Below, piece after piece: positions 7,775 through 28,735 of a stretch of 39,675 nt of DNA; positions within the stretch are counted from its first letter, which is position 1; each line of letters opens with the position of its first letter. This stretch comes from Methanocalculus alkaliphilus (lineage in GTDB: Archaea > Halobacteriota > Methanomicrobia > Methanomicrobiales > Methanocorpusculaceae): contig NZ_JALJYG010000010.1 in assembly GCF_024170505.1 (NCBI RefSeq), positions 1 to 39,675 on the forward strand, in the 5' to 3' direction. The position numbers and the translations under genes are program-made. The notes beneath the pieces are model-generated. The model worked only from the letters and a program-made list of their open reading frames with translations, was not told the DNA's origin and made no database searches.

Positions 7775-8665
7775 ATGCAGAGTATCAATGACCCCTATTC
7801 AATCATATACCCCGAGATCCTCGGGATTGCATCAGAGGATGGAACCTCTGTCGAACTGATCGAGCGGTTTGACTGTATCGGGGGGGCGATGTGGGTGAGG
7901 CATCACTACGCGAAGAGCCCCCTTGTCCGGCATGTCAGGACCCTCGGGCTGACGAACCGGTACTTTTTAACACCCGGGGCAGTGGATCTCGATCTCGTCG
8001 GTTCACGCTTCCCCGCTGGTATTGCCAGGGTTTCAGCCTCTGACTCTGAGATCGGGATCACCTACATCGGGATGGGTGGTGGTGGCGTCGGGGCTTCCAT
8101 CTGCCGTGCCGGTGCAACAGGCGTGATCCGCTCGGAATCGGATCCCTGTGGTGGTGGAAAGATTGCAGGCTCACGGATCGTCCTTCCACGCCGCCAGCGG
8201 CTGATCATTGGTGTTGACGATACCGATACCCCTGATGCAGGGGCAACCTGGACCCTCTGCCATAATATCGCAGAGGCAGTCTGCGACGATGCGACCCGAT
8301 ACCTCTCCCATACCATCACCCAGCTCTACCCTGTCGCCTACAGGACGAAGAACTGTGTCGCGGTTGCGTGCGAATTTGCAACGGCCGACCCTGCCGGATG
8401 TATCGATCGGTTTGAGAACCTTCTCATGGAGCATACCCTCTCCGATGAGACCGGGATGGCGGCATACACCGGGTTTGATCCCTCCCCTCTCCTTGAGTAT
8501 GGCTGGAAGGTGAAACGTGGTGAGATCACCCGGTCGGAGATGGACGACCTCCTCCCGCTTCTCGATGTCAGAGCCGCCGGGCGGGGGCTGATCGGTGCAG
8601 TTGCGGCGATTCCGTTTGCGACACGATTTGATGAGGCACTCCTCTTATGCGATGGCACGAACTAA
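7775..8665 (+). CDS. Methanogenesis marker protein 11
   Basis: A 296-aa member of the methanogenesis marker 11 family, which is found across methanogens and has no established reaction. A glycine-rich GMGGGGVGAS stretch near residue 105 precedes GVDDTDTPDAGATWTLCHN near residue 147. The latter resembles the GIDDTDSP element of the kinase-like domain of TiaS (the tRNA-Ile2 agmatidine synthetase), suggesting an ATP-dependent activity. The upstream ribosome site is weak (GGCGG). Its 3' end overlaps the radical SAM gene by 19 bases, making it the first gene of the aks operon. A direct role in coenzyme B synthesis is inference from that linkage. Confidence 0.85.
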   Translation: MQSINDPYSIIYPEILGIASEDGTSVELIERFDCIGGAMWVRHHYAKSPLVRHVRTLGLTNRYFLTPGAVDLDLVGSRFPAGIARVSASDSEIGITYIGMGGGGVGASICRAGATGVIRSESDPCGGGKIAGSRIVLPRRQRLIIGVDDTDTPDAGATWTLCHNIAEAVCDDATRYLSHTITQLYPVAYRTKNCVAVACEFATADPAGCIDRFENLLMEHTLSDETGMAAYTGFDPSPLLEYGWKVKRGEITRSEMDDLLPLLDVRAAGRGLIGAVAAIPFATRFDEALLLCDGTN

Positions 8666-9618
8666 AGGCAGGGCTCCTTGCAACCGGATCATGCAGAGTC
8701 ACCGGTGCCGATGCATCATCCTATATTGAGCGGTCCGCTGCCGGACCGGGCGCCGGCGGTTCCGGCTCACTCTTCTTCTCAACAGGTGGCAGGAGAATCC
8801 GTCTCTCCATCTCCCATGATTCTCCAATTGAGATACGGCATCTTGGAGGTGGAGAGGCGATCCTTCGGCACGGATCAACAGAGTGCACCGGAATCCTTGA
8901 GCAGGTCGGTCTTCACTGCCCCCGCCAGGCATATATCACCGTCACCGGGAGGTGCATCTTCTCCTGTAGATACTGCCCCGTCCCCGGAACTGATGGGCGG
9001 ATCAAAACACCGGATGAGATTGCAGCAATGATCGCCGGTGTCCGGGAGAGGATCGATGCCATATCCCTGACAAGCGGCGTCCTTGAATCGATCGATGATG
9101 AGGAGCGGCGGGTGCGTGCGGTTCTGAGACGGATCGGGGAGGTGGAGATACCGATCGGGGTCTCCATCTATCCGGGCCGGGATACGCCGGATAATCTCTA
9201 TGCAGACGGTGTTTCAGAGGTGAAGTTCAATCTTGAGGCGGCAACACCCACCCTTTTTGAAGAGATGTGCCCGCCCCTCTCCTGGGATGGTGTTATCAGG
9301 GCACTCGATCGTTCAGTCGAACTCTTTGGGGAAGGGCATGTCTTCTCAAATGTTATAATCGGCCTTGGAGAGAGCGATGAGGAGATGGAGGCATGTATCG
9401 AACTCCTCACCGGGAGGGGGGTGATCCCGGTGCTCCGCCCCCTCACTCCCGCCGCTGCCCTGCAGTCCTTTTCGCGTCCGGGAAGAGATCGCCTGCTCAG
9501 AACCGCAGCTCTCCATGCCCGATGGCTGAAGAAGGCGGGGCTTGATACACGGACTGCAGAGACGATGTGCACCCTCTGCACAGGATGCGACATCGTTCCG
9601 GGGAGGGACTGTCCATGA
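8647..9618 (+). CDS. Radical SAM protein with C-terminal cysteine cluster, in the coenzyme B operon
   Basis: A 323-aa protein with the radical SAM signature C103-x3-C107-x2-C110 (GRCIFSCRYCPVP). It is followed by a TIM-barrel-like region with SLTSGVLES, SIYPGRD, KFNLEAATP and IIGLGESDEE, a layout reminiscent of the biotin synthase/HydE/HmdB group. The C-terminus has C308, C311, C314 and C322 (CTLCTGC then DCP), which could hold an auxiliary Fe-S cluster. The first 90 residues are not recognised. It overlaps mmp11 upstream and the ThDP gene downstream (ATGA). The substrate is unknown; sulfur insertion or another radical step in coenzyme B synthesis is inferred from position only. It does not look like Mmp10, the McrA arginine methylase. 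Confidence 0.85.
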   Translation: MRWHELKAGLLATGSCRVTGADASSYIERSAAGPGAGGSGSLFFSTGGRRIRLSISHDSPIEIRHLGGGEAILRHGSTECTGILEQVGLHCPRQAYITVTGRCIFSCRYCPVPGTDGRIKTPDEIAAMIAGVRERIDAISLTSGVLESIDDEERRVRAVLRRIGEVEIPIGVSIYPGRDTPDNLYADGVSEVKFNLEAATPTLFEEMCPPLSWDGVIRALDRSVELFGEGHVFSNVIIGLGESDEEMEACIELLTGRGVIPVLRPLTPAAALQSFSRPGRDRLLRTAALHARWLKKAGLDTRTAETMCTLCTGCDIVPGRDCP

Positions 9619-10886
9619 AAGGGTATGAGGTGATTGCTCACCATCTGAAGGAATGTGCCGAGGCGATCTATACCGTCCCCGGTTATCCGGTAACGGAGAT
9701 TGGAACTGTGGTATCCGCAGAGACGGTCATTAACGAGAAGGTCGCCCTTGAGTATGCCCTGGGTGACTCCCTCTCCAGGCGGCGTTCTGCGGTCATCGTC
9801 AAACATGTCGGGATGAATGCACTCGCGGACCCCCTCATCAATGCTACAACCCAGGGGCTCATCGCTGGTGTCGTCATCATCGCCGGTGATGATCCTCTTG
9901 CTGTATCTTCTCAGAATGCCCAGGACTCACGGTACTATGGTGAGATTGCACAATGCCCGGTGATCGAGCCTGGGGAAGAGACGGTGAACGAGGCGGTGGC
10001 AACCGCATTTGAAGTATCGGAACGCTTCTCAAGGATTACAATCCTTCGGGTCACCCCAAAACTTCTTGATGCTGAGACCGAATGTGGCGATACCATCCAG
10101 ATGATACGAAAAGGACGTCTTGCAGAGGCTGACCTGACGATAGCGGGCAGGGTGACCCGTGCTGAGAAGGGAACCGGCGGACTCTTCGCATGGGCTGCCG
10201 GATCCGGGCTGAACAGGATCAGAGAGGGTGATACCGGTGTCGGCGCCGTACTGGCACCCTCGCATGTCACCATCTCCTATCCTCCGCCAAAACTACCTCC
10301 CGGTTCGAAGATCCTTGAGATCGGGAGGCCGTTTGTGCGGGAGCACCAGTCGCTTCTCCCCCCGCCGGTCTCCAGGAACTCAGAACGCTTCTCAGATCGC
10401 GGGTACTACCGGACATTCTGCACAGCCTGTCCATACCGCCCGCTCTTCTCGGTTCTGGTGAAGCGGGGCATGAAGGTCATCCCGGATATCGGCTGTTCAC
10501 TCCTCCTGCTGAATCCTCCTTATCAGGCAGGTATTGCAAGTTATGGTCTGGGTTCCTCCATTGCAGTTGCGGCGAAGAGTACCCGGGTTGCGGTTATCGG
10601 TGATGGCGCTCTCCTTCACTCAGGACTGAATGCCCTCATCGACTGCTATGAGATGGGCTATCCGCTCCTCTGTATCGTCCTTGAAAACCATTGTATGGCA
10701 ATGACCGGCGGCCAGAGATCATATGATATCCGCCGGTACCTGGCATGGGCAGATCCGGTCATCATCCCTGCTGAAGATACCGACGCCCTTGAAACAATCC
10801 TTTCCCTTCCAGTGGAAGGCCCAAAGATCGTCATCGTTGAAGGTTCATGCCCGGAGGGTGCCTGTTATGAAAAAGTGGAATGTTGA
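9615..10886 (+). CDS. IorA-like thiamine diphosphate protein lacking the ferredoxin domain
   Basis: A 423-aa protein resembling the alpha subunit of indolepyruvate:ferredoxin oxidoreductase. The N-terminal pyrimidine-binding domain is seen in GYPVTEIG, NEKVALEYALG, KHVGMNALADP and SSQNAQDSRYYG. The C-terminal ThDP domain has CTACPYRPLF near 269, DIGCSLLLL, VIGDGALLHSGLNALID near 326 and MAMTGGQ. IorA proteins usually end with a two-cluster ferredoxin domain; here the protein stops without it and no iorB is adjacent. That argues for non-oxidative chemistry such as 2-oxoacid decarboxylation. It starts inside the radical SAM stop and overlaps aksA by 20 bases. Decarboxylation of 2-oxosuberate is a plausible role, not proven. 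Confidence 0.85.
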   Translation: MKGYEVIAHHLKECAEAIYTVPGYPVTEIGTVVSAETVINEKVALEYALGDSLSRRRSAVIVKHVGMNALADPLINATTQGLIAGVVIIAGDDPLAVSSQNAQDSRYYGEIAQCPVIEPGEETVNEAVATAFEVSERFSRITILRVTPKLLDAETECGDTIQMIRKGRLAEADLTIAGRVTRAEKGTGGLFAWAAGSGLNRIREGDTGVGAVLAPSHVTISYPPPKLPPGSKILEIGRPFVREHQSLLPPPVSRNSERFSDRGYYRTFCTACPYRPLFSVLVKRGMKVIPDIGCSLLLLNPPYQAGIASYGLGSSIAVAAKSTRVAVIGDGALLHSGLNALIDCYEMGYPLLCIVLENHCMAMTGGQRSYDIRRYLAWADPVIIPAEDTDALETILSLPVEGPKIVIVEGSCPEGACYEKVEC

Positions 10887-25131: not shown

Positions 25132-25971
25132 TCACTTTTTTATCTGATTCCGTGCCGCGAAGAGGTACTCCTGTGCATATCCGGCATAGGGGCCAAAGAT
25201 TGCCCGTGCCTCATCTGCGATCTGATCATAGCTGTACCGCCCCCCTTCCTCGAGGTAATGAGTCCGCATGATCCGATCGATCCAGACATCAACCGGAACC
25301 GCTTCAAACCGGTGAAAGGCAAAGAGGAGGATACAGTCAGCGACCTTCCTACCGACACCCGGAAACCTCATCAGTTCTCTTCTGGCATCCCTGTATTCGA
25401 GAGCGGCGATCCTCTCATCCCACCCGGGCTCATTGCTGACCATCCCTGCGGTCCCGCAGAGGAAGCGGTCGCGGTACCCGACACGACAGCTCCGGATATC
25501 ACAGAGCGGAGATGATGCCAGGGTGCCGGGCTTCGGGAAGGCGAACTCCCCGGCCCGGATCTCCTCACCGAACCGTTCACAGAGGAGGCGTATCCGGGTG
25601 CGTATTCCGGGTATGTTTGCAAAGGTTGCCACGATGTATGATGCAGCACACTCCCAGGCCGGCTGGCGGACGATCCTGAGCCCGTATGCATGCCTGACTG
25701 CCGAGGCAAGCAGGGGATCATCAGGAAATCCCCTCAGTATCCCCTCAAGATCCAGATCGAGATCAAAATACCTGATGATCTGATCCTCAGTGGTGCCTGC
25801 AAAGTGGAGATCTCTTCCCTCCTGCCGGATCCTGATCACCTCGTTTTCGAGGACGCCGCACCACCAGCGCCCGATCTTCTCGAAGCGGAAGACCTGGCCG
25901 CACCGGAGTGTTATATCGAGATCGAACGGGAGTGCCGATCCTTCAAGGGTGAGTTTCCTGCAGTGCTCCAT
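25132..25971 (-). CDS. ogg: 8-oxoguanine DNA glycosylase / AP lyase (OGG family)
   Basis: A 279-aa DNA repair glycosylase. The N-terminal beta-rich part contains LRCGQVFRFEKIGRWWCGVL, typical of OGG1-type proteins. The helix-hairpin-helix-GPD motif is LMRFPGVGRKVADCILLFAF near residues 203-222, with the putative catalytic Lys in GRKVAD and the conserved Asp in PVDVW near 230. ATG 25971 overlaps the stop of the upstream 713-aa gene (TGATG), so the two are probably co-transcribed. A GTG one codon earlier (25974) is possible. Confidence 0.9.
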   Translation of the reverse strand: MEHCRKLTLEGSALPFDLDITLRCGQVFRFEKIGRWWCGVLENEVIRIRQEGRDLHFAGTTEDQIIRYFDLDLDLEGILRGFPDDPLLASAVRHAYGLRIVRQPAWECAASYIVATFANIPGIRTRIRLLCERFGEEIRAGEFAFPKPGTLASSPLCDIRSCRVGYRDRFLCGTAGMVSNEPGWDERIAALEYRDARRELMRFPGVGRKVADCILLFAFHRFEAVPVDVWIDRIMRTHYLEEGGRYSYDQIADEARAIFGPYAGYAQEYLFAARNQIKK

Positions 25972-28112
25972 CACTCCTCCCCGGTGATGAGCAGAAGGCG
26001 CCTCATCATCAGATACACGTCGTTATTCTCCTCCTCAAACTCCGGTGCCGCCTCATAATGATATGATACCCAGCGGACGTTTCTCCCGTCGATCCGGTTA
26101 TAGAAGTACCATGCAGGCGCTCCTGTCTTTGAGTGTCTTTCAATCCTGAAGAGTGGAAGGAGTTCAAGCGGTTCCGAACTCCCCTGCGCATGAAGATACA
26201 CTTTTCCCGTATCAAGGGGGATACGTGTCTGGAGATGAATCGTCCGGAACCGGGAGCGGGACCCTGTAAGCGACTCTGCCGTATAGGTAAAGATTCCATT
26301 CCGGTACTCTCCTGTGCCGGGGAGTACAAGGGCCATATCCGCGAAATGATCCCGCAGGATCCGCTGATATCTCTTCAGGTACTCTTCAAGCGTTGCGACC
26401 CGCTCCTCATACCCTGCAATGCTCACAATTCCCCCATGTCCTTTCCAGTCATTTCTGAGATCCGCAACCTCGTCAAAGAGCGTGAAGAGCCGCTTATCGG
26501 TGATGAGATCGATGAAGCCTCGGGGCGGATTGCCGAAGAGTGCCATGATCTCGTCCCGCTCTTCCGGGGATCCAAGCCTCTTTCTGATAACCCTCCCTGC
26601 CCTCCTGCAGAGTATGATCCAGCTCCGAAACGTCGCATACCGGTAGATATCACGAAACTCAGGGTTCTCGTCAAGGAGGTCAATACCTTCCGCCTGTATG
26701 AGAGGGGCGACTCCGGATATGAGGATGAGGGAGAAGAACTCGGCAGATGCTTCGAAGAGATGGAAGAGATGGTTCTGTTTCTTCTCTGGAGATTCCTCAG
26801 CAATATATGCCCAGATGATGGAAGCAAGTGGAAATGGCAGGGTCTCTGTCCAGTCGTGAATGCCATCCCCTTCCAGCAGGTTTTTCACCCTCTCTCGAGC
26901 GGAACGGGATGAATGAGGATGATTCAGGAGATCATCCCCGATTTCATCGAGCTTCTGTTTCAGGGATTCGATCTCACCGTGGATTCCAAGCACCTCAGCC
27001 TGCACCTGCGGGGGTGGAAGATAGATCGTTGCCAGTGAGAGTTCCTTACGGAACCGGCTGATATCACCTGCCTTTCGTGCTATCAGTTCCCTGATGGCGT
27101 TGCCCAGCGGTGTGGTGAAGAAGAGGGTGAGGTATCCGGGATCGACGGCATCCGGCCTGAGGAGGATGCATGCGGCTTCAGTGGTGGCGATGGCGAGATC
27201 CTCATCTCGGGTTGCCGGTGGGATTGCCGGGGAGTAGGGGAGATAAAGCCGCCTGCCTGCATCCTGCGGCAGCCCGCATGCCCCGATTGTCATCGATCTG
27301 ACAAGACCGGAGAACGGAACCGGGGCTGTGCCATGCTCCTCTGCAAGCCTCTGAACCTCGTCCTCAAGGAGGATCTCTCCAAGGCTGCGGAACGCAGACG
27401 GGTGAATGAATCTCCCATGCTGTGCTGTCTTTCCATCCTTTCCACTCAGAAGATTCCGGATCAGAATCTCCTGCCGCCCGTCTTCTGGGGAGAGTTCTCC
27501 TGCCATCATCCTCTCCCCCGCTCCCTGCCGGATGATCACAAGGAGGCATCTCCTCCCGTCGATGGGGGTGAAGACTCCGCGTGGCAGGGAAAGTGTTGCC
27601 TGTGGGAAGAGTCCGTGTTCTTTCAGGATGCCTGCACTCGTTCCGCCTGCAAAGAAATCCGGATCGGTGATACAGAAGAGCGCTCCGTCAGGGGAGAGAA
27701 GTCCTCCTGCCCGGATCAACATTGCCGTTCTCTCTGCATTGCCAGGGCTGATATTCTGCTTTTCGTAAACCCCGGCATCCATGGCAAAATCCGGTCTTTC
27801 AATAGGTGGAACTGCAATAATGAGATCATATCTCTCACTGCAGGTGGAGAGTATCTCGTCTGTATCACCCTCAATGAGATGAATCCCCTCCCTCTTTGGA
27901 TCTTCGGGGTGCCGGGTGATCGCAACCAGCCGCGCTGCTCCGATCTCGTCAAAAAGGGATACATATGATGCAACATCCCCAATCCATGGTATGAGGACTG
28001 ATTGATATCCTCGGGGCCGGGTGTATCGTACAATGAATCTCCTGATGGCCTCTGGTAGTTGATCTCTCTCTTCGCTTATCCTACTCCCCCCTTTTCTCAT
28101 GACACGAATCAT
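25971..28112 (-). CDS. Degenerate HsdM-like / HsdS-like / HEPN-like fusion protein, candidate defence factor
   Basis: A 713-aa protein. Residues 25-200 follow the type I methyltransferase (HsdM) fold: motif X-like RYTRPRGY (29-36), a motif I-like IPWIGD (41-46), motif IV-like AVPPIERP (100-107), then NAERTAMLIRAGGLLSPDG and LSLPRGVFTPIDGRRC. The catalytic NPPF and the DPxxGxG loop are not conserved, so methylation is doubtful. Residues 255-400 resemble an HsdS half-unit (YLTLFFTTPLG, ISRFRKELSLATIYLPPPQVQ, then a coiled-coil-like helix). Residues 430-600 are helical with R553-N-D-W-K-G-H559, a HEPN-type R-N-x4-H motif. The last 110 residues are beta-rich (FYNRIDGRNVRWVSYHYE). No hsdR is nearby. 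The start could also be ATG 28100, the better fit to a leaderless transcript from CTATAAC near 28126. Confidence 0.7.
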   Translation of the reverse strand: MIRVMRKGGSRISEERDQLPEAIRRFIVRYTRPRGYQSVLIPWIGDVASYVSLFDEIGAARLVAITRHPEDPKREGIHLIEGDTDEILSTCSERYDLIIAVPPIERPDFAMDAGVYEKQNISPGNAERTAMLIRAGGLLSPDGALFCITDPDFFAGGTSAGILKEHGLFPQATLSLPRGVFTPIDGRRCLLVIIRQGAGERMMAGELSPEDGRQEILIRNLLSGKDGKTAQHGRFIHPSAFRSLGEILLEDEVQRLAEEHGTAPVPFSGLVRSMTIGACGLPQDAGRRLYLPYSPAIPPATRDEDLAIATTEAACILLRPDAVDPGYLTLFFTTPLGNAIRELIARKAGDISRFRKELSLATIYLPPPQVQAEVLGIHGEIESLKQKLDEIGDDLLNHPHSSRSARERVKNLLEGDGIHDWTETLPFPLASIIWAYIAEESPEKKQNHLFHLFEASAEFFSLILISGVAPLIQAEGIDLLDENPEFRDIYRYATFRSWIILCRRAGRVIRKRLGSPEERDEIMALFGNPPRGFIDLITDKRLFTLFDEVADLRNDWKGHGGIVSIAGYEERVATLEEYLKRYQRILRDHFADMALVLPGTGEYRNGIFTYTAESLTGSRSRFRTIHLQTRIPLDTGKVYLHAQGSSEPLELLPLFRIERHSKTGAPAWYFYNRIDGRNVRWVSYHYEAAPEFEEENNDVYLMMRRLLLITGEE

Positions 28113-28141: not shown

Positions 28142-28735
28142 ATGGATACTCGTGCAATCGTTGTCGTTGCCATTGCGGTCATTCTTGGGGTCTCTCTGGC
28201 AGTATATACGGGGATACTACCACTCCCCGGTGATCGTGACGCAGATTCTGTGTCTGAACTGCCTCCAGCGCCACCATCTGGTGAAACGGACCCCACAGCA
28301 ACTCCTGAACCGGCTGCTCCTGCACCTGGAGGAATACGCACCATTTCGAGCATGCTGATCTGGGCAGAGCCTGCAGATCTTGGAGGGTTTGGTGACCTTG
28401 ATGGTCTAATCGTCAAATACAGGTTCTATGACGGGAATAACCACCACGTCACCTTCGAAGGCTCCTCCGTCTCGATGGAGGTCTCCGTGTACACCCCGGA
28501 TACAGATCGCAGGGGTCTTCGGATCTCTCCGCGTCTTCTGTACCGGGGCTTTGCAACCGTCAGCCGCTCGCTGCCTGAAGGGGACTTCCCGCTTCGGGGC
28601 ATCTGGATTCCATACCATGAAATCTCCTTCAACGAACAGGATCGTGGCATCGGAAGGATTCATGTGAAGGCCACATTCCCGCATGGAACATCCGTTGAGG
28701 CAGAGGAGTGGTATATCTGGCCTGTAAGACGATAG
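28142..28735 (+). CDS. Membrane-anchored extracytoplasmic protein, unknown function
   Basis: A 197-aa protein. Residues 5-24 (IVVVAIAVILGVSLAVYTGI) form an N-terminal membrane anchor. They are followed by a Pro/Thr-rich linker to about residue 65 and a 130-residue beta-rich domain (LIVKYRFYDGNNHHVTFEG, SMEVSVYTPDT, IHVKATFPHGTSVEAEEWYIW). The pattern suggests an outward-facing immunoglobulin-like or carbohydrate-type domain; I do not recognise a family. AAGG lies about 7 bases before the ATG. It is divergent from the HsdM-like gene and convergent with the small membrane protein gene. Confidence 0.75.
   Translation: MDTRAIVVVAIAVILGVSLAVYTGILPLPGDRDADSVSELPPAPPSGETDPTATPEPAAPAPGGIRTISSMLIWAEPADLGGFGDLDGLIVKYRFYDGNNHHVTFEGSSVSMEVSVYTPDTDRRGLRISPRLLYRGFATVSRSLPEGDFPLRGIWIPYHEISFNEQDRGIGRIHVKATFPHGTSVEAEEWYIWPVRR

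Follow-up and report, generated by a model that had tools for sequence, protein, structure and literature searches.

What use could a cell have for a protein in which a DNA methylase that has lost its catalytic motifs is joined to what appears to be a ribonuclease? The question is raised by a 713-aa protein of Methanocalculus alkaliphilus, encoded on the 39.7-kb stretch of DNA that we analysed at its full length of 39,675 nucleotides (hereafter the window; Table 1). A sequence-only reading had taken it for a solitary protein in which a DNA-recognising module, its catalytic motifs lost, is linked to an RNase domain of HEPN type. Alignments and structural models bear out that anatomy, whereas the word solitary does not hold for the bacterial relatives and the archaeal context proved to be different. 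The interpretation towards which we lean is that of a single-chain HEPN RNase which a pseudo-methylase/TRD sensor keeps inactive, with a predicted RNase activity, a presumed trigger and a putative role in defence.

The open frame is uninterrupted and intact, and it lies on the minus strand (28112..25971), a detail that the earlier description of a 713-aa chain had left out. Purifying selection acts on the gene and is most stringent in its HEPN domain. In a comparison of the window with the nearest species, dN/dS was 0.066 for this domain, 0.11 for the C-terminal end, 0.14 for the TRD and 0.31 for the methylase, with 0.05-0.13 for most neighbour genes. Scans of the protein against Pfam, NCBIfam and PADLOC gave no family apart from a weak Specificity_I match. 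There were no curated family matches for MADS, BREX or Hma/BR and no partner genes in the window, and the homologues scored far below the cut-off of the MADS2 and MADS5 models.

Table 1. Positions in the window of the gene, its predicted domains and motifs, and the adjoining ogg gene
Feature	Positions	Strand	Basis
Gene for pseudo-methyltransferase, TRD half-unit, HEPN domain and beta-rich end (713 aa)	25971..28112	-	Open frame; full-length archaeal and bacterial homologues; dN/dS 0.15
N6-adenine methyltransferase fold, catalysis lost (residues 18-247)	27372..28061	-	VIA-align to HsdM structures, profile cross-matches
SAM motif I, degenerate: I41-PWIG-D46 where intact relatives have DPxxGxG	27975..27992	-	Homologue alignment
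Degenerate catalytic motif IV, V101-PPI104 for NPPF	27801..27812	-	Homologue alignment
HsdS-like target-recognition half-unit (residues 248-366)	27015..27371	-	Model matches; Specificity_I / Methylase_S in homologues
HsdS-type long spacer helix (residues 368-397)	26922..27011	-	Model helix
HEPN-like all-helical domain (residues 418-590)	26343..26861	-	Domain model pLDDT 82.9; best matches include HEPN structures
E454, a conserved acid that precedes the motif	26751..26753	-	Nearly invariant; Asp in L019
Predicted RNase active-site motif, R553-NDWKG-H559	26436..26456	-	Invariant R and H
Beta-rich C-terminal domain (residues 593-713)	25974..26336	-	Model strands; CxxC pairs in L046, L048, L077
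ogg, 8-oxoguanine DNA glycosylase	25132..25974	-	Pfam OGG_N E 9.7e-18; start GTG 25974 or ATG 25971

Archaeal and bacterial settings of the gene

In Methanomicrobiales the gene belongs to the core genome, is passed on vertically and is tied to ogg; it does not lie in a defence island. Its stop codon shares bases with the ogg start (TGATG at 25973-25969), and a GGAGG just upstream of that start lies inside the gene itself. The gene stands directly upstream of ogg in three Methanomicrobiales genera from two families, with ends that overlap or nearly do so. The loci with this arrangement are L001-L004, L042 and L074-L076; two of the three genera, g16 and g116, belong to another family than Methanocalculus. 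Gene order around it is the same in all fully read Methanocalculus loci, and the surrounding genes of the window, among them pheS, pheT and hisF as judged by their sequences, have a housekeeping look. On the other side, a small divergent ORF (28142-28735, +) starts 29 bases from the upstream end of the gene; it encodes a hydrophobic N-terminal stretch, has no Pfam match, evolves as fast as the 713-aa gene and is kept beside it in Methanocalculus.

The family has members in Methanocalculus and other Methanomicrobiales, in further families of their phylum, in Bacillota and Bacteroidota, and on plasmids of Actinomycetota. They are found in 12 of the 232 genomes of the order, and in about one in 300 of the sampled Bacillota or Bacteroidota genomes when the genome used as the centre is excluded. 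At five independent loci (L006, L007, L009/L010, L072 and L020) bacterial homologues adjoin a complete hsdMSR set, with the identity of M, S or R confirmed by Pfam; on a Gordonia plasmid (L020:10522-13041) the homologue is split into two ORFs and directly follows a complete type I R-M operon. Another homologue adjoins gabija (L005), one adjoins other defence-type genes (L044), and two lie near ORFs with the appearance of mcrBC (L072 and L008). The R-M loci possess their own M, S and R, and the homologue is an extra gene; because a full hsdMSR set sits beside them, the homologues are not ordinary HsdM or HsdS subunits standing next to hsdR, a possibility that the earlier reading had itself raised. 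The description as solitary is accurate for the window, where none of the ORFs looks like an hsd gene, but not for the bacterial relatives with their type I R-M or defence-island neighbours. A distribution in defence islands, which the earlier reading had named as a check, is seen among these relatives and not in the archaeal lineage. Co-occurrence with HsdR was set aside as uninformative: nine of nine well-assembled carriers have HsdR, but so do 108 of 135 genomes across the order. No relatives of the 713-aa protein appeared in two scans of viral contigs, nor did tblastn searches with this protein and the effector half of L077 find any in phages.

Several neighbours of homologues were seen in passing. 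A cas1 gene (Pfam Cas_Cas1) with casposon-like-looking neighbours (L043:12075-18107) lies a few kb from an archaeal homologue (8016-10280). Conserved, uncharacterised ORFs adjoin the homologue in Bacillota: in two genera one of 458 aa comes directly after it (L007:10132-11508 and L008:10129-11505), and in L009/L010 two of 313 aa and 147 aa precede it (L009:6297-7713).

The 713-aa protein diverges faster than its neighbours, with about 50% identity in three of four comparisons within the genus (84% in the nearest species), while most neighbour proteins are 73-90% identical in those same three. This pace, the linkage of bacterial homologues to R-M and defence genes and the lack of the gene in most ogg-bearing relatives of the family make it doubtful that in Methanomicrobiales the protein has become a domesticated housekeeping or repair accessory, that is, a partner of OGG in the quality control of DNA or RNA, built as a platform that binds DNA and carries a domain for binding or cutting RNA, and with its antiviral role gone. 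Such a role would nonetheless agree with the fixed synteny in the genus, the same gene-ogg order with overlapping or nearly overlapping ends in g16 and g116, and the purifying selection on the gene as a whole. In the sister genus g2, ogg is present, and the 713-aa gene or any trace of it is absent at the loci checked.

The helical domain and the C-terminal end

The guarded-RNase interpretation depends on the nature of the helical domain, which in our judgement is very probably a HEPN domain. HEPN RNases are recognised by an Rx4-6H motif with a polar residue after the Arg, placed where the penultimate helix ends and the next loop begins, and by a conserved acid upstream, often as Ex3[KR] (PMC3710099). 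The segment from R553 to H559, already singled out from the sequence as HEPN-like, is strictly R-x5-H and falls inside this range. Neither residue varies in an alignment of 14 homologues drawn from archaea, Bacillota, Bacteroidota and Actinomycetota, nor in any other set examined, so that the pair is constant across the archaea and four groups of bacterial loci. In that alignment identity to the first row is just 16-20% and the only other invariant columns are L575 and G617, so the conservation of the R553/H559 pair is not a matter of chance. The Asn after the Arg (N554) is present in all 14 rows except L044, and position 454 is Glu in most homologues, although the [KR] of the Ex3[KR] pattern is absent. 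When the helical domain was folded alone, R553 fell in the last turns of the penultimate helix and H559 in the loop after it (helices at 143-160 and 168-189 in domain numbering, with the Arg at 156 and the His at 162). Alignment and model thus agree with the published description in motif, polar residue, upstream acid and motif position.

Fold comparison was less specific. With VIA-align the helical domain matched many HEPN proteins, among them 1wwp, 1jog, HepT, RnlA and MtlR-like structures at Z 5.7-7.2, but unrelated helical bundles scored alike, and Foldseek returned nothing significant, HEPN proteins included. The 713-aa protein matched neither HEPN family models nor PDB sequences; hmmsearch of the HEPN or C-terminal profile against PDB sequences gave chance matches only (for example interleukin-4 and G proteins), and hhalign against HepT profiles was null. 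A profile-profile comparison with the DUF4145 HEPN family was weak (probability 2%), yet it fell in the motif register and scored above all 60 column shuffles. This register, together with an Arg and a His that are the sole invariant charged residues and have HEPN spacing and position, the Asn after the Arg and the upstream acid, renders it quite improbable that the domain is something other than a HEPN RNase, with R553 and H559 structural or ligand-binding and the protein a non-enzymatic DNA-binding or regulatory one, as the missing sequence-family match to HEPN, the weak structural scores and the lack of profile similarity to HepT would allow.

Modularity of the C-terminal half is seen in a 665-aa protein from Bacteroidota (L077:8057-10054, -), which has the same HEPN/beta half, with the motif as RNSWTGHG, and no methylase; its N-terminus is instead a squalene-hopene-cyclase-like repeat (Pfam E 2.8e-9). 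Since L077 joins this half to a different N-terminus, the comparison supports the view that the half may be an independent effector module. The beta-rich end, suggested earlier from sequence, is seen as strands in the model. It is probably a zinc-knuckle domain whose metal site has been lost in the 713-aa protein, because the divergent relatives L046, L048 and L077 have cysteine pairs and a YFY...YxS pattern in their C-terminal end. The CxxC...H zinc-knuckle pattern is intact in L077.

The pseudo-methylase and target-recognition half

The methylase and HsdS-like parts of the protein represent real homology, as the sequence-only reading had proposed. In a full-length AlphaFold2 model (12 sequences, mean pLDDT 81.7), residues 9-390 matched HsdM, M.TaqI, M.BseCI and CamA at Z of about 14-18 with VIA-align; 3lkd scored Z 18.1, the value up to which HsdM structures matched over residues 12-247, M.TaqI (2adm) reached Z 16.0 over 292 residues, and the type IIG enzyme BpuSI was also matched. 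Matches to methylases that carry a TRD extended to residue 366-390. The family profile, run against archaeal genomes, found N6-methyltransferases at profile positions of about 40-240 and HsdS subunits at about 285-456, and homologues matched PADLOC Specificity_I and Pfam Methylase_S. The model holds one TRD half-unit and one spacer helix, whereas HsdS has two TRDs and conserved spacer helices. Kinship of this TRD with the HsdS subunits of the same genome was considered and rejected, as there was no similarity.

The loss of the catalytic motifs, too, is as first described: HsdM proteins have an intact motif I and NPPF, and the 713-aa protein has IPWIGD and VPPI in their place. Loss is graded across the homologues. 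In an alignment counted with the L073 row excluded, the catalytic Asn of motif IV is absent from every homologue that covers the motif, with L046 as the sole exception, while motif I is gone in Methanocalculus and intact in the related genera g16 (LDPQAGLGS) and g116 (LDPFAGAGG), so that SAM binding may persist in these members. It is hardly tenable, then, that the protein is an active orphan DNA methyltransferase or a type I/IIG modification subunit, as its methylase and TRD fold, the intact motifs of L046 and the annotation of plasmid homologues as 'N-6 DNA methylase' might suggest, given that the 713-aa protein and nearly all homologues lack the motif IV Asn, that Methanocalculus has lost motif I, that the methylase part is the least constrained region of the gene, and that there is no HsdM_N domain and no R or S partner in the window. 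The exceptional archaeal relative (L046:674-2768, from G303) has DPACGSG and NPPF together with RNETIGHGG; its C-terminal end runs on in a different frame, for which a frameshift or sequencing error is likely.

Possible mode of action and related systems

If the protein is indeed an RNase guarded by its own pseudo-methylase, the N-terminal half would be a former N6-adenine methyltransferase with one TRD half-unit, in the layout of type IIG or M.TaqI-like enzymes, which no longer transfers methyl groups but has probably kept its binding to DNA or to partners of HsdM/HsdS type. Its C-terminal counterpart would be a metal-independent HEPN endoribonuclease, with a predicted R553/H559 site that is completed in a dimer. 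In the resting cell the sensor half would keep the RNase off; foreign DNA at the sensor's site, or a type I R-M complex disturbed by an anti-restriction factor, might act as the trigger, and the released RNase would, much as PrrC does, cleave tRNA or mRNA of the cell and so halt the production of virus. For the bacterial members we favour the blocked R-M trigger, because of their R-M linkage, the M, S and R genes alongside and the PrrC precedent. In Methanocalculus and related genera the core gene would be co-expressed with ogg, and this operon suggests a possible role there for DNA damage, which may now be included in the trigger. Besides the missing HEPN family matches and the modest structural scores, two findings on the context of the gene count against the guarded RNase: no R-M gene is linked to it in the window, and the gene is vertically inherited beside ogg, unlike mobile defence genes. 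It could alternatively be that the dead methylase/TRD is a decoy which mimics type I R-M complexes, docks into them or takes up their sites, with the HEPN domain firing when an anti-restriction protein blocks restriction and the archaeal branch domesticated with ogg, a scheme that we think unlikely.

The guarded RNase that we prefer resembles PrrC, the anticodon nuclease of the EcoprrI type Ic R-M locus, in that the HEPN RNase is encoded by a supernumerary gene of a type I R-M operon and is proposed as a second line of defence; such linkage to type I R-M was observed at the five bacterial loci and not for the copy in the window. PrrC senses through an ABC ATPase, whereas the present family has a dead methylase and TRD as its sensor half. 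RloC likewise combines a HEPN RNase with its own regulator in one chain, and R-M linkage is not obligatory for it, but the regulator is a Rad50-like ABC ATPase with a zinc hook, which the 713-aa protein does not have. In place of the N-terminal ABC ATPase of PrrC and RloC we found a methyltransferase and TRD fold. Type IIG and M.TaqI-like methylases (BpuSI, M.BseCI, CamA) and HsdM/HsdS share this fold and the same order of methyltransferase and TRD; the 713-aa protein differs from them in its lost catalytic motifs, its single TRD half-unit and its RNase-type domain in place of a DNA nuclease. The HEPN domains of Abi, DUF4145, Swt1/DUF499 and BR/Hma systems have the Rx4-6H motif and an R-M or defence context, but are fused to nucleases, helicases or ATPases.

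R-M-linked HEPN effectors are already known; what would be new is one with a pseudo-methylase sensor. A survey of HEPN domains states that those linked to R-M are not fused to methylases, although its table has occasional HEPN-M fusions to nucleic-acid methylases (PMC3710099), and the methylase-HEPN fusion described here runs against that statement. A BREX survey of 2026 and DefensePredictor report HEPN effectors from different contexts. Openly accessible papers, with most subscription papers outside the scope of the text searches and an earlier description therefore possible, gave no account of a pseudo-methylase/TRD-HEPN architecture. If our interpretation is correct, a worn-out modification enzyme has been retained to serve a suicidal RNase as its sensor, which would provide a second route, beside the ABC ATPase of PrrC and RloC, for coupling DNA restriction to defence at the RNA level. 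In the archaeal branch with its ogg operon, methanogens would then, unusually, have kept an effector of defence type by vertical descent, and the RNase part of the plasmid members would have been overlooked under their methylase annotation.

The genome of M. alkaliphilus contains three type I R-M operons, all on contigs other than that of the window (L114, L115 and L116, on contigs C13, C7 and C12). Accessory genes are found in these operons, such as DUF262-like and AAA-type ORFs, judged by their sequence alone.
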